DNA from: Archaeoglobaceae archaeon
Lineage (GTDB): Archaea > Halobacteriota > Archaeoglobi > Archaeoglobales > Archaeoglobaceae
Direction: 5' to 3'
NCBI GenBank assembly: GCA_027064525.1
Contig: JAMOPJ010000033.1
Location: 1-39,211, forward strand
Length of the DNA stretch: 39,211 nt
A program made the position numbers and the translations under genes. Below, one piece after another: positions 4,616 through 38,930 of this stretch. Positions within the stretch are counted from its first letter, which is position 1, and the number at the start of each line of letters is the position of its first letter. The notes below the pieces were generated by a model. That model worked only from the letters and a program-made list of their open reading frames with translations, ran no database searches and had not been told where the DNA came from.

Positions 4616-6016
4616 ATGATGCTTTCAGCTCACAAGACGAAGATAATAGCTACGATAGGCCCATCTTCAAACTCAAAGGAGGTTTTGAGAAAGCTTATAA
4701 GGTCGGGAATGAGCATTGCAAGGATAAACTTTGCCCATGGATGTTTTGAGGAACATGCCAAGGTCGTTGAGAGAATAAGATCTATTGCGGAGAGGCTTGA
4801 AAGGAGAGTTGCGATTTTGGGTGATCTACCCGGAGTAAAGATAAGGATCGGAAAGCTTGAAAAAGAGCCGATAATTCTGAACAGAGGTCGGAGGGTTGTG
4901 CTCACTACAAGGGATATCGAGGGAAACGATACTGAAATACCGGTGGAGTTCAAGGATTTTCCGAAGATCGTGAGTAAGGGTGATGTGATCCATCTAAACG
5001 ACGGATACATCAAGCTGAAAGTTGAAGATGTCAAAAACGGGGATGTTATCTGTAGAGTTTTGGTTGGGGGCAAACTGTTCAGCAGGAAGGGGATAAACGT
5101 TCCGAAGGCAGAGTTGCCCCTCGAAGCCTTAACTGAAAGAGATTTTGAAATCCTCGAATTCATGATCGAGCTCGGTTTTGATGCAGTAGGGGTTTCTTTT
5201 GTCGGATCTGCTTACGACATAATCAAAGTCAAGAGATTCGTTCAAAAACGTTCGGAGATGTTCGTAATAGCAAAGATTGAGAGGGTTGATGCTGTCAAGA
5301 ACTTCGACGAGATCCTGAGTTCTTCGGATGGCATAATGATAGCCAGAGGCGATTTGGGCGTCGAGATCCCGATCGAAAAACTCCCGATAATTCAAAAGAA
5401 GTTGATAAGGAAAGCTAATTATGAAGGAAAGCCAGCGATAACCGCCACGCAGATGCTCGAATCGATGACTACTGATAAGATGCCTACGAGGGCTGAGGTG
5501 ACGGATGTTGCCAACGCGATCTTGGATGGGAGCGATGCAGTGATGCTTTCCGAGGAAACGGCGGTTGGAAAGTATCCTGTTGATGCTGTTAGGATGATGG
5601 CTAAGATCGCGAGAACTACGGAAACGTATCTGAAGCCAACTCTGGATGTTGAGGAGATACGGAAGGGTGGAACGATAAAGGATGCGATTTCCGTAGGGAT
5701 AATCGAGGCTTTGAGAATCGTTAACGTCAAGTTCATAGTTACGCCTACTAAGACAGGCAGAACTCCTCGCCTTATCTCTCGATTTAGGCCAAAGCAGTGG
5801 ATATTGGCATTCAGTGATAACGAAAGGACTTGCGGAGGTTTGATGTTCTCATACGGCGTTCAGCCATTTTTACTTGAGGAGGGGTTTGATGAGACGAATA
5901 TTATGAAGCTTCTCAAGGATCTTGGTCTGTTGAAGTCGGGGGACACGATTATGATAACGGAAAGCAGGCCGGCTGAGGTTGGGACAAACACTATAAGGAT
6001 TCTGAGAGTAGATTGA
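4616..6016 (+). CDS. pyk: Pyruvate kinase
   Basis: Catalyses phosphoenolpyruvate + ADP to pyruvate + ATP, the last glycolytic step, in the cytoplasm. The 466 residues cover the usual A, B and C domains: TKIIATIGPSS at the N-terminus, the catalytic-lysine signature IAKIERVDAVKNFDEIL near 219, IARGDLGVEIP (Mg/phosphate site) near 241, ITATQMLESM near 275, and a C-terminal domain ending in GTNTIRI. No extra PEP-utiliser domain is present. ATG at 4616 or 4619 are both possible; AGGA lies 8 bp before. Monocistronic: a long non-coding gap precedes it and a guide RNA follows immediately. Confidence 0.97.
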   Translation: MMLSAHKTKIIATIGPSSNSKEVLRKLIRSGMSIARINFAHGCFEEHAKVVERIRSIAERLERRVAILGDLPGVKIRIGKLEKEPIILNRGRRVVLTTRDIEGNDTEIPVEFKDFPKIVSKGDVIHLNDGYIKLKVEDVKNGDVICRVLVGGKLFSRKGINVPKAELPLEALTERDFEILEFMIELGFDAVGVSFVGSAYDIIKVKRFVQKRSEMFVIAKIERVDAVKNFDEILSSSDGIMIARGDLGVEIPIEKLPIIQKKLIRKANYEGKPAITATQMLESMTTDKMPTRAEVTDVANAILDGSDAVMLSEETAVGKYPVDAVRMMAKIARTTETYLKPTLDVEEIRKGGTIKDAISVGIIEALRIVNVKFIVTPTKTGRTPRLISRFRPKQWILAFSDNERTCGGLMFSYGVQPFLLEEGFDETNIMKLLKDLGLLKSGDTIMITESRPAEVGTNTIRILRVD

Positions 6017-36499: not shown

Positions 36500-36733
36500 A
36501 TGAATTCTGAATTAATGAGCAGTGAGATTTTAGAGATGCTGAAAGCGATCATGGCGAAGCTTGAGGAGATAGACGAAAGGCTAAAGAGGATTGAGAACGA
36601 GTTTTTTGACGAACTTAGTGAAGAAGAATTGAAAGAACTCGAAGAAGACATCAAAGCTTACAAGAGAGGAGAGTTGGAACTTATATCCCTTGAAGAGCTA
36701 AAGAAGGAGCTTGGGATTGATGAAAAAGTTTAA
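36500..36733 (+). CDS. Orphan antitoxin-like coiled-coil protein
   Basis: 77 residues from the ATG at 36500. A helical coiled-coil front (ILEMLKAIMAKLEEIDERLK) leads to an acidic stretch and KAYKRGELELISLEELKKEL, the ending typical of archaeal RelB-like and VapB-like antitoxins. No toxin gene follows: the next gene is a HicB 66 bp away. It could be a solitary remnant or act in trans. Family assignment is by resemblance only. Confidence 0.6.
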   Translation: MNSELMSSEILEMLKAIMAKLEEIDERLKRIENEFFDELSEEELKELEEDIKAYKRGELELISLEELKKELGIDEKV

Positions 36734-36799
36734 GTCATTTCTAGACAGCTTTCTAGTTTAGCATAACTTTTTTTAATGTTTTAATTTTAGAGAGATTTA

Positions 36800-37021
36800 A
36801 TGCAAAAGGAAGAGAAGATAAAAGAGATTATTTTTCTTGTGGAGGAGACAGATGAAGGTTACATTGCGCAAGCATTGGGACATTCGATTTATACTCAAGC
36901 GGACAGCTTAGAAGAGCTAAAGGAAATGATAAAGGATGCAGTAGAATGCCATTTTGACGAAGAGGATAGACCTAAGATAATCCGACTGCACATCGTTAAG
37001 CAAGAGGTTATAACCTTATGA
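36800..37021 (+). CDS. hicB: HicB antitoxin
   Basis: A 73-residue HicB: IIFLVEETDEGYIAQALGHS, then YTQADSLEELKEMIKDAVECHF, the partial-RNaseH-like HicB fold. No added DNA-binding domain, as in other short archaeal HicB proteins. It overlaps hicA by 4 bp (ATGA) and precedes it, the antitoxin-first order. It neutralises the HicA mRNA interferase. Confidence 0.9.
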   Translation: MQKEEKIKEIIFLVEETDEGYIAQALGHSIYTQADSLEELKEMIKDAVECHFDEEDRPKIIRLHIVKQEVITL

Positions 37022-37263
37022 AGTTGCCGAGAGATATCAGCGGAGAGGAATTGGCTAAACTTCTTAGGAAATACGGTTACGAAATCACAAGACAAACTGG
37101 GAGTCATATTCGTCTTACAACCCATTTAAAGGAGGAACATCATATAACTATTCCACGACATAAACCCCTCAAAGTCGGAACTTTGAATGCAATCCTTAAG
37201 GATGTAGCAAACCACTTAGGAATTTACAAGAAAATACTAATTAAAGAGTCGTTCGGTAAGTAG
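37018..37263 (+). CDS. hicA: HicA toxin (mRNA interferase)
   Basis: An 81-residue HicA: ISGEELAKLLRKYGYEITRQTGSHIRLT with the catalytic His in GSH, and HHITIPRHKPLKVGTLNAIL, the double-stranded-RNA-binding-like fold. All hallmark residues are present, so it is probably active. It cleaves mRNA when freed from HicB. A second, convergent HicB gene ends 5 bp after it. Confidence 0.92.
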   Translation: MKLPRDISGEELAKLLRKYGYEITRQTGSHIRLTTHLKEEHHITIPRHKPLKVGTLNAILKDVANHLGIYKKILIKESFGK

Positions 37264-37267
37264 AAGA

Positions 37268-37438
37268 TTAATTTCTCACCTCTTCTAATTCTGGTGGCTC
37301 CTCTAAATGCAACTCAACAGCTTCCTTGATATTCTTCAAAGCCTCTTCTATTGTTTTTCCCTGAGTAGTTACTCCCGTAAACACCCCTTTTACTATAAAC
37401 ATACTCTCTTCTTTCCAAATCACAACGTTAAGTTTCAT
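37268..37438 (-). CDS. Second HicB-like antitoxin, solitary
   Basis: A 56-residue HicB-family protein: MKLNVVIWKEESMFIVKGVF, then TTQGKTIEEALKNIKEAVEL and HLEEPPELEEVRN. It has no hicA of its own and converges on the hicBA pair, its stop 5 bp from the hicA stop. It differs clearly from the first HicB, so it is not a recent duplicate. It may be an orphan antitoxin, or a decoy that also binds HicA. Confidence 0.8.
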   Translation of the reverse strand: MKLNVVIWKEESMFIVKGVFTGVTTQGKTIEEALKNIKEAVELHLEEPPELEEVRN

Positions 37439-37618
37439 TTACTTTCCGTTATGCGGATCAACGGGGTAAAAGGGTTTAGTTTGATAGCTTTGGTCATCAG
37501 CCTGTCAAGGAGAAAAAACATTAAACAATTTTTAACATATAAAACATCTATCGCCAAATTAAAGTCTATAATTATAAAAATCCACTAATAACAATTGAGT
37601 CACTCGACCACTCCTACA

Positions 37619-37639
37619 TATTCCAAAATAGTTGGAATA
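37619..37639. repeat. Inverted repeat TATTCCAA/TTGGAATA
   Basis: Perfect 8-bp arms (37619-37626, 37632-37639) with a 5-nt loop, between the solitary HicB gene and the palindrome array. It may be an operator. The rest of 37439-37662 has no gene I can support. Confidence 0.45.
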
Positions 37640-37662
37640 TACACCTCATGATGTAAATAGGC

Positions 37663-38055
37663 TTGGTTACACATGCAAAATCCATTGAGATTTTGAACAT
37701 TGACCAATTTAGACTGAAGAATCTTCAAGATTTGATTGAAAATATTGAAGATTCTTCAAAAACAAATATAAAAAGATCAGTTTTAAGCTTTTGTGGACAC
37801 ACCTGGAACCTCGAGTTGTGGCCACAACAAGAGTTTCTAAATGTGTGGTCACAAAAGGTCGATTGGCCCTATGACTGTGACCACAAGGATCCGGAAACTT
37901 GTGTCCACAATATTCCTGGATCCATATGTGTCCACAACAAGAGCTCCGATTGTGAGCACATACAGGATCTCAATTGTGGACACAAAACAGATGATTCAGA
38001 TGTATGGTTGGTGAAAAATTTCGCAATCTCGCAAATTTACAAAAGCGTTTATTAA
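37663..38055 (+). CDS. Open frame over the palindrome array, doubtful gene
   Basis: A 130-codon frame (MVTHAKSIEILNIDQFRLKN at the start) running through the repeat array. The array makes it read C-x-H at six places (CGH, CDH, CVH, CVH, CEH, CGH) but LWPQ and VWSQ at the second and third repeats, because those units are shifted in frame. No ribosome site is evident, and a TTG or ATG start is not clear. It could be a zinc-binding protein, yet the DNA palindromes, not the protein motif, are the conserved unit. Treated as uncertain. Confidence 0.3.
   Translation: MVTHAKSIEILNIDQFRLKNLQDLIENIEDSSKTNIKRSVLSFCGHTWNLELWPQQEFLNVWSQKVDWPYDCDHKDPETCVHNIPGSICVHNKSSDCEHIQDLNCGHKTDDSDVWLVKNFAISQIYKSVY
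37715..37758. repeat. Inverted pair of GAAGAWTCTTC palindromes
   Basis: TGAAGAATCTTCAA (37715-37728) and TTGAAGATTCTTCA (37745-37758) form perfect 14-bp arms around a 16-nt loop. Each arm is itself palindromic (GAAGA-N-TCTTC), and their centres are 31 bp apart. It lies 34 bp before the TGTGNNCACA array and looks like a second class of binding site. Confidence 0.7.
37792..37984. repeat. Array of eight TGTGNNCACA palindromes
   Basis: Units start at 37792, 37817, 37844, 37876, 37900, 37927, 37951 and 37975 (steps 25, 27, 32, 24, 27, 24, 24). All eight keep TGTG and CACA exactly; the two central bases vary (GA, GC, GT, AC, TC, TC, AG, GA). The second extends to the 14-bp palindrome GTTGTGGCCACAAC. 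The spacers are mostly unrelated, although ACAAGAG follows two units and GGATC recurs in three. It resembles an iteron or centromere-type binding array and is not a CRISPR. Confidence 0.85.
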
Positions 38056-38115
38056 AATGAAATTAATAATCAAATTTTATAAATATCAAAAAATTAATTA
38101 ATATTTCGAGAGAGA

Positions 38116-38277
38116 TTACTTTTTCTGGACTGCTTTATGTTTAGGTTTTTCATCTGAAACGATAACGACTTCAACGTGCTCGATACCTTCAACTATTACG
38201 CTTTCACTTTCTTCAAGCTCAATTTTGGCTAATTCTCCGAGATCTTTTAATTTTCCGACTTTTTTAGCCATAATCAT
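38116..38277 (-). CDS. Small protein ending the wHTH/BrnT-like operon
   Basis: 53 residues (51 if the second ATG is used): AKKVGKLKDLGELAKIELEE, then SESVIVEGIEHVEVVIVSDE and a Lys-rich tail. Not recognised. The ATG at 38277 overlaps the stop of the toxin-like gene (ATGA), so the two are coupled. Acidic middle and basic end suit a toxin partner, but that is inference from position and size. Confidence 0.7.
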   Translation of the reverse strand: MIMAKKVGKLKDLGELAKIELEESESVIVEGIEHVEVVIVSDEKPKHKAVQKK

Positions 38278-38537
38278 CTTTCCATCTCCTTCCTATATAA
38301 CCTTTTTTCAGCATCGGTTGAATCTCTTGCAGTTACCAGTTCGTATATCTGTCCCTTCTTATCTACGAATAGCGTTAGAAATCTACCAGCAAATGTTTTC
38401 CCTATAATCCTGTATCTGTTTCCTTTTACTCGAGTGTATAGAAAAACTCCCTCAAGAACTTCAAATACCTCCTTCACTGTTACATTATGCTTACTCTCGA
38501 TCTTTGAGGCTATATGATGCTTAATGATAAGTCTCAT
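38274..38537 (-). CDS. BrnT-like putative toxin
   Basis: An 87-residue protein resembling the BrnT/RelE-fold group: a short N-terminal helix with SKHNVTVKEVFEVLEG, central strands (RYRIIGKTFAGRFLTLFVD) and YELVTARDSTDAEKRLYRKE, close to BrnT's R-I-I-S-A-R...E..Y ending. Such proteins are ribosome-dependent or free RNases. The match is by eye. It overlaps the upstream wHTH gene and the downstream small gene by 4 bp each. Confidence 0.65.
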   Translation of the reverse strand: MRLIIKHHIASKIESKHNVTVKEVFEVLEGVFLYTRVKGNRYRIIGKTFAGRFLTLFVDKKGQIYELVTARDSTDAEKRLYRKEMER

Positions 38538-38779
38538 TCTTTCACCTTTAGTAATTCCTTGCCTTTCTCCGTAAGCTTGTAAGTTTTACTGTATTCATAC
38601 AATTTCTCGATTATTCCCAATTCCTCTAGATCTCTGAAGGTTCTAAATTTGCTTGTTCTACTTAATTCATCGGGATTCAATCCCATCCTCCTGGCAACAT
38701 CATCGGCATCCTTCATGGTCACGTAAGAAACTTCTGAGAATGCTTTCAATATGCAGATGACATACTTAACACGGTTCAT
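38534..38779 (-). CDS. Winged-helix regulator heading the operon
   Basis: 81 residues: VKYVICILKAFSEVSYVTMK, then DADDVARRMGLNPDELSRTSKFRTFRDLEELGIIEKL and YSKTYKLTEKGKELLKV, a winged-helix DNA-binding fold with the recognition helix around SKFRTFRDLEELG. Its start codon lies inside one of four 16-bp operators (38773-38788), pointing to autorepression. First gene of a three-gene, overlapping operon (regulator, BrnT-like protein, small protein). Confidence 0.8.
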   Translation of the reverse strand: MNRVKYVICILKAFSEVSYVTMKDADDVARRMGLNPDELSRTSKFRTFRDLEELGIIEKLYEYSKTYKLTEKGKELLKVKE

Positions 38780-38930
38780 ATTTGAAACTTTCAGCTATAT
38801 CTTAAAAATGTTTCGCATTTGAAACATTTGGGACCTATTCCAGGGTTGAACATGGAAAGTTACAATAAGACCGAAAAGTTCCAAATATGGAACATTCGGC
38901 TGCAAATACATAATGTTTCAAATATGAAAC
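38773..38930. promoter_or_regulatory. Four-operator array GTTYCA-N4-TGRAAC
   Basis: Sites at 38773-38788 (GGTTCATATTTGAAAC), 38810-38825 (GTTTCGCATTTGAAAC), 38878-38893 (GTTCCAAATATGGAAC) and 38915-38930 (GTTTCAAATATGAAAC). Centres are 37, 68 and 37 bp apart, so the array is symmetric as two pairs. The last two are perfect palindromes; the third is further flanked by CCGAA/TTCGG. The first covers the wHTH start codon. The remaining gap to 39109 has no gene. Confidence 0.8.

Follow-up and report, generated by a model that had tools for sequence, protein, structure and literature searches.

Near one end of the window, by which is meant the whole stretch of 39,211 nucleotides analysed from an Archaeoglobaceae archaeon, the palindrome TGTGNNCACA occurs exactly eight times within 193 bp (37792–37984) and nowhere else in the 39.2 kb. 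In 100 dinucleotide shuffles the count in the window averages 0.20 and reaches at most 2, and so the eight perfect palindromes at steps of 24–32 bp that a sequence-only reading of this DNA had described are confirmed. The units start, on the plus strand, at 37792, 37817, 37844, 37876, 37900, 37927, 37951 and 37975, giving start-to-start steps of 25, 27, 32, 24, 27, 24 and 24 bp, and the contig ends 1.2 kb from the array. Toxin-antitoxin-like genes lie on both sides of it, as that reading had also noted, in a cluster reaching from 36500 to 38779. The features are as follows, those without a strand being marked unstranded where so recorded.

36500–36733: weak addiction-module match, toxin-antitoxin-like cluster
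37018–37263: HicA, toxin-antitoxin-like cluster
37271–37438, minus strand: HicB-like, toxin-antitoxin-like cluster
37527–38057, unstranded: block with two flanks (37527–37812 and 37888–38057) that are 80–82% identical to the G003:C139 locus
37663–38055, plus strand: 130-aa open frame spanning the array, interrupted at the homologous locus and hence judged non-coding
37715–37758, unstranded: hairpin whose inverted arms measure 19 nt, separated from the left end of the array by 33 bp
37792–37801, unstranded: unit 1, TGTGGACACA
37802–37816, unstranded: spacer word CCTGGAACCTCGAGT, whole in a JAMOOR010000086 spacer and 14/15 bases in G058, inverted in both
37817–37826, unstranded: unit 2, TGTGGCCACA
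37844–37853, unstranded: unit 3, TGTGGTCACA
37854–37875, unstranded: spacer word AAAGGTCGATTGGCCCTATGAC, of which GTCGATTGGCCC is common to JAMOOR010000086
37876–37885, unstranded: unit 4, TGTGACCACA
37886–37899, unstranded: spacer word AGGATCCGGAAACT, 13 bases common to JAMOOR010000086, inverted
37900–37909, unstranded: unit 5, TGTGTCCACA
37927–37936, unstranded: unit 6, TGTGTCCACA
37951–37960, unstranded: unit 7, TGTGAGCACA, absent at the homologous place in G003:C139
37975–37984, unstranded: unit 8, TGTGGACACA
38047–38106, unstranded: very AT-rich tract on the right side of the array, 60 bp with 6.7% GC
38274–38537, minus strand: BrnT-like, toxin-antitoxin-like cluster

The hairpin to the left and the AT-rich tract to the right make the surroundings of the window array origin-like. 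A homologous array locus exists in a sister species (G003:C139, L257), where a viral operon adjoins, and by eye a single pair in its copy of the hairpin is exchanged on both sides, as would be expected of a hairpin that is conserved. The same locus bears upon the 130-aa frame, which reads C-x-H at six units and WPQ or WSQ at units 2 and 3, these two being out of frame as was first claimed. In G003:C139 that frame meets an in-frame stop and then a differing text after FCGH, and yet the TGTGNNCACA units persist; a Cys-His repeat protein was rejected on this broken frame and on the WPQ/WSQ readings. Since the arms are perfect while the spacers diverge, the spacing varies and the homologous frame is broken, selection on the DNA and not on a protein is supported, much as had been proposed.

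Distribution and anatomy of the arrays

Arrays of at least three units occur in nine of 57 Archaeoglobales genomes, and the genome of the window has three further arrays on contigs C44 and C47. Most sit on integrated viruses or plasmids, including the Thalassapleoviridae proviruses ApPV1 with three units and ThalV2 with four (BK065154, BK065158). An integrated plasmid-like setting had been suggested for the window array, and this accords with its kindred on integrated mobile elements; the window array itself may be placed in such an element because its homologous locus lies beside a viral operon. AvPV1 has no array, and neither GacPV1 nor GahPV1 has a perfect unit in its first 10 kb. In A. profundus (G050) the array at 737553 has a VapB-like gene on one side and on the other a DUF460 gene, which probably belongs to the host; a location within an element is therefore not demonstrated for all arrays. 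The arrays occupy several kinds of place, open frames included: the array at L249:11619–11762 is half-degenerate, with three perfect and three imperfect units, and L250:8509–8541 is a two-unit copy, and both of these in-frame copies apparently read as linkers. The genomes are in part fragmented, and the ends of several contigs fall at an array or close to one.

GTDB contigs were scanned for three units and IMG/VR was also scanned with the pattern, a subset of the matches being inspected. Archaeoglobi matches from the GTDB scan have mixed centres and mixed spacers, and the inspected matches from other organisms in either collection are nearly all tandem repeats, single-sequence repeats or chance groupings. 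The sole such array found outside the Archaeoglobi is on JAMOOR010000086.1 (L109), which is labelled Thermotogaceae and carries 12 units together with the small gene CL1; it is probably a mis-binned Archaeoglobi element and otherwise a case of host jump. One virus contig (L195, IMGVR_UViG_3300018475_000350) has nine exact copies of TGTGGACACA at 5745–5971 with different spacers, and seems to be a separate system. Array DNA set against phage and plasmid records gave chance matches only. In a look at the literature on these elements, short of a full literature search, no earlier description of the arrays was found; the main text of the paper on the ApPV1 and ThalV2 proviruses (PMC10919331) does not mention them, and a published REP survey (PMC12306157) does not mention Archaeoglobus.

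The anatomy was drawn from 24 arrays with 124 units, and the constancy of the arms is near total: apart from the in-frame L249 array, 124 perfect units stand against one with a single mismatch. The central dinucleotides are nearly all TC, GA, GT, AC or GC, the base following the unit is usually A or G, and across the arrays the steps are mostly 24–28 bp with a peak at 26–27 bp. Units are symmetric and their centres occur in both orientations. Only one isolated TGTGNNCACA site is present in 220 kb of element-bearing loci, and such restriction to clusters is in keeping with an array for nucleation or an origin more than with scattered operators. The pattern search and the homologous locus together gave what an array of protein sites on DNA would lead one to expect, with palindromes kept, spacers varying and the C-x-H frame not conserved at G003:C139.

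The spacers have a character of their own. Six-base palindromes number 66 in them against 27.5 expected from dinucleotide shuffles, TCCTG/CAGGA occurs 30 times per strand where about 3 would be expected, and for GGATCC the count over both strands is 22 against 1. Spacer words of different arrays form 71 pairs having an exact common 10-mer, compared with 0–1 in shuffled words, and the words held in common differ in order and orientation from array to array. For instance AAGAAGATCCTGCTCGAGAAGCT is whole in both G003:C34 and G050 with different neighbours, and the window's AAAGGTCGATTGGCCCTATGAC groups with words of G003, G050 and G000:C44. Recurrence of the words with changed neighbours and orientation indicates that the spacers have been reshuffled. 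Neither the density of palindromes in the spacers, nor the recurrence of the arrays on mobile elements of relatives, nor the non-conservation of the frame had figured in the sequence-only reading.

The CL1 gene and other neighbours

CL1 is a small orphan gene, its product about 100 aa long with an acidic C-terminal tail, and it ends directly before the array in ten elements (G000:C47, G003:C34, G003:C138, G016:C28, G022:C3, G044:C20, G048:C34, G050, G058:C346 and JAMOOR), the array starting 8–18 nt after the stop codon and within operons. In L275 the CL1 frame continues into the array, and the G016 copy has an internal TGA. CL1 proteins are 39–76% identical to one member and have invariant H, R, G, P, L, N and I positions. 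The gene is in nine of the 57 Archaeoglobales genomes, that is in 8 of the 9 with arrays and in 1 of the 48 others, a co-occurrence for which Fisher's test gives p = 4.8e-8, the genomes being related so that the events are not independent. The lone CL1-like genome without an array, G047, gives a weak match (E = 2e-4) and has no TGTGNNCACA in the 7.7 kb covered. About half of the arrays are not beside CL1, the window's among them: CL1 is absent from the window and is encoded by the same genome on contig C47. In G009 and G020 the arrays are short and CL1 is undetected. The first proposal for a binder had been the wHTH gene at 38534–38779, and this falls away, as the gene is in just one of the 57 genomes though nine have arrays. 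Short palindromes (among them GTTTCGCATTTGAAAC, GTTTCAAATATGAAAC and TGTTCCAAATATGGAACA) are repeated, by eye, at 38780–38930 upstream of the wHTH gene and are likely to be its own operators.

What kind of protein CL1 may be was approached by several routes. Within 393 Halobacteriota genomes CL1 does not occur beyond this family, nor are there relatives in IMG/VR; Pfam, PHROGs and the PDB gave no match, and with two AlphaFold models (pLDDT about 75) Foldseek gave no significant relative. The weak relative in G047 (G047:C21, L298) lies near a contig end and by eye resembles an AbrB-type swapped hairpin. An AbrB-like assignment of CL1, suggested by eye and through this relative, found no support from Pfam or from a small hhalign test and was dropped. 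An SSB/OB-fold was likewise rejected: chains of SSB and PriB do come up repeatedly with Foldseek, but the best E is 0.3–0.4, which is non-significant.

Replication genes are near the array in several elements, and they are not the same ones. L275 has an MCM helicase gene upstream of CL1, with three genes between. The arrays of L252 and L278 are followed after 10–17 bp by the start of a Rep homologue; it clusters with ThalV2 gp28, annotated as a rolling-circle Rep, and against TrwC gives a weak match only (E = 0.011). The gene beside CL1 in L249 is weakly GINS-like (E = 0.13). As MCM, Rep and GINS-like genes vary by element, it follows that the carriers differ in replication genes and share CL1 and the arrays. 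An Orc1/Cdc6-linked origin was considered and rejected, no Cdc6_C match being found beside an array; the nearest is a partial one in G022, on the contig of an array but at a distance of 44 kb. An AT-rich tract does not accompany every array, several CL1 arrays having nothing below 38% GC nearby, and the GC-skew extremes of ThalV2 and ApPV1 are not at the array.

Interpretation and comparison with known systems

The reading that best accounts for these observations, to which we give a probability of about 0.48, is that the array is a cis-acting nucleoprotein site, probably for CL1, used in the replication or maintenance of the element. Each TGTGNNCACA would be a dyad to which a DNA-binding protein attaches as a dimer, and the palindrome-rich spacers (CAGGA/TCCTG, GGATCC, GGWCC, CTCGAG) probably make up a second class of sites. 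CL1 is the likeliest binder, a candidate on account of its gene ending directly before the array in ten elements, and it would cover the array either alone or with the element's own initiator, be that MCM-type, an HUH Rep or other. The array so covered may then start or control the replication or maintenance of the excised element, and that in the window would be a copy without a CL1 of its own. CL1 and array together appear to form a hitherto undescribed module of gene and landing site that serves to copy or keep these elements; their linkage could have some other cause, such as autoregulation or transcript stability. A further proposal, which we regard as doubtful, would have the two palindrome classes combined from a common spacer vocabulary by exchange at the TGTGNNCACA cores, and read by CL1 as a combinatorial site; the site would determine identity in replication or compatibility and would be handed on among elements that are not related.

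Three other explanations weigh less than a role of CL1 and the array in replication or maintenance. One is a partition centromere, in which the gene of a DNA-binding protein is followed by a palindrome array that nucleates a segregation complex, as with sopC of F. Gene-then-array layout, clustering and the near absence of single sites all suit it, but several of the carriers are small viruses, CL1 is without a match in any ParB-like family, and of the matches that the ParA-family partner (PF13614) has in the nine array genomes, those in the draft genomes all lie on contigs that carry no array and those in the single-contig genomes G009 and G050 come no nearer to the arrays than about 27 kb. 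Partition of this type is thus unlikely; of the forms that the earlier proposal gave to an array of protein-binding sites, a nucleation or origin array suits the clustering better than scattered operators would, and the ParA-type centromere is weakened. Of comparably low probability is a BIME- or REP-like mosaic, a non-coding repeat that spreads, inserts after stop codons or in frame, and relies on CL1 for its mobility or maintenance. The shuffled order and orientation of spacer words common to unrelated arrays speak for it, as does the variety of places in which arrays are found, the in-frame L249 array included, and a similar association exists between rayt genes and BIMEs (PMC2817692). Against this, units of 10 bp with a two-base centre are unable to form REP-type hairpins, no gene linked to the arrays has a transposase-like product, and the near-total constancy of the arms argues for a function.

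It seems equally improbable that the arrays are operators for a regulator encoded by the element, CL1 or one of VapB/RHH type, that switches a downstream operon. Two A. profundus arrays do lie 35–62 bp upstream of RHH/VapB-like genes, and the closeness of the L252 and L278 arrays to the Rep start codon points the same way, but arrays of 8–12 units are large for one operator and the single isolated site in the element-bearing loci means that there is no dispersed regulon. An element acting at the RNA level, a structured 3' region that follows the CL1 stop codon in the mRNA, is very improbable, for although the array is within operons just past that stop codon and its self-complementary units could pair mutually, the units are symmetric with centres in both orientations, and pairing of neighbouring units is disfavoured because their central dinucleotides are complementary less often than when shuffled (9 observed vs 14.3).

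To our knowledge neither the origins of replication nor the inheritance sites of elements in Archaeoglobi have been described. Were CL1 and the array to act in replication or maintenance as set out above, they would constitute a cis-acting system common to otherwise unrelated mobile elements of hyperthermophilic archaea, with a candidate protein, and with two described pleomorphic proviruses among its carriers. Exchange of palindromic words between arrays is an unusual mode of DNA-site evolution. A. profundus DSM 5631 carries several arrays and CL1 (C1:718993–719322), and so offers material for direct binding and footprinting.

From a CRISPR array the present ones differ in having 10-bp units with a variable centre, and spacers that are palindromic and recurrent, not unique. 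The F centromere sopC is located just after sopB. It has twelve 43-bp repeats with 16-bp inverted repeats (PMC6238139), and like other ParB-parS arrays it resembles the arrays here in the clustering of palindromes by a small gene of possible DNA-binding function. In contrast to F parS/sopC and such arrays, the sites here are of 10 bp and not 16 bp, the spacers are not tandem copies, no ParA partner was found beside the arrays and CL1 lacks any match to ParB-like families. With REP/BIME and RAYT systems (PMC2817692) they share a mosaic of palindromes, exchangeable spacers, a mostly extragenic position and a dedicated gene often adjoining, but REPs are hairpin-forming palindromes of 20–40 nt with an HUH transposase, whereas these units are of 10 bp and CL1 is without a transposase match. 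There are also few arrays per genome here, mainly on mobile elements. Iterons are usually direct repeats at uniform spacing, bound by the adjacent Rep. Iteron origins are like the arrays in having several short conserved sites, here putative binding sites, at near-regular spacing, in the replication genes that adjoin some carriers' arrays, and in the AT-rich tract and hairpin at the window. They differ in that the arrays here are dyads of variable spacing with mosaic palindromic spacers, and in that the replication genes vary between carriers while it is CL1 that recurs.
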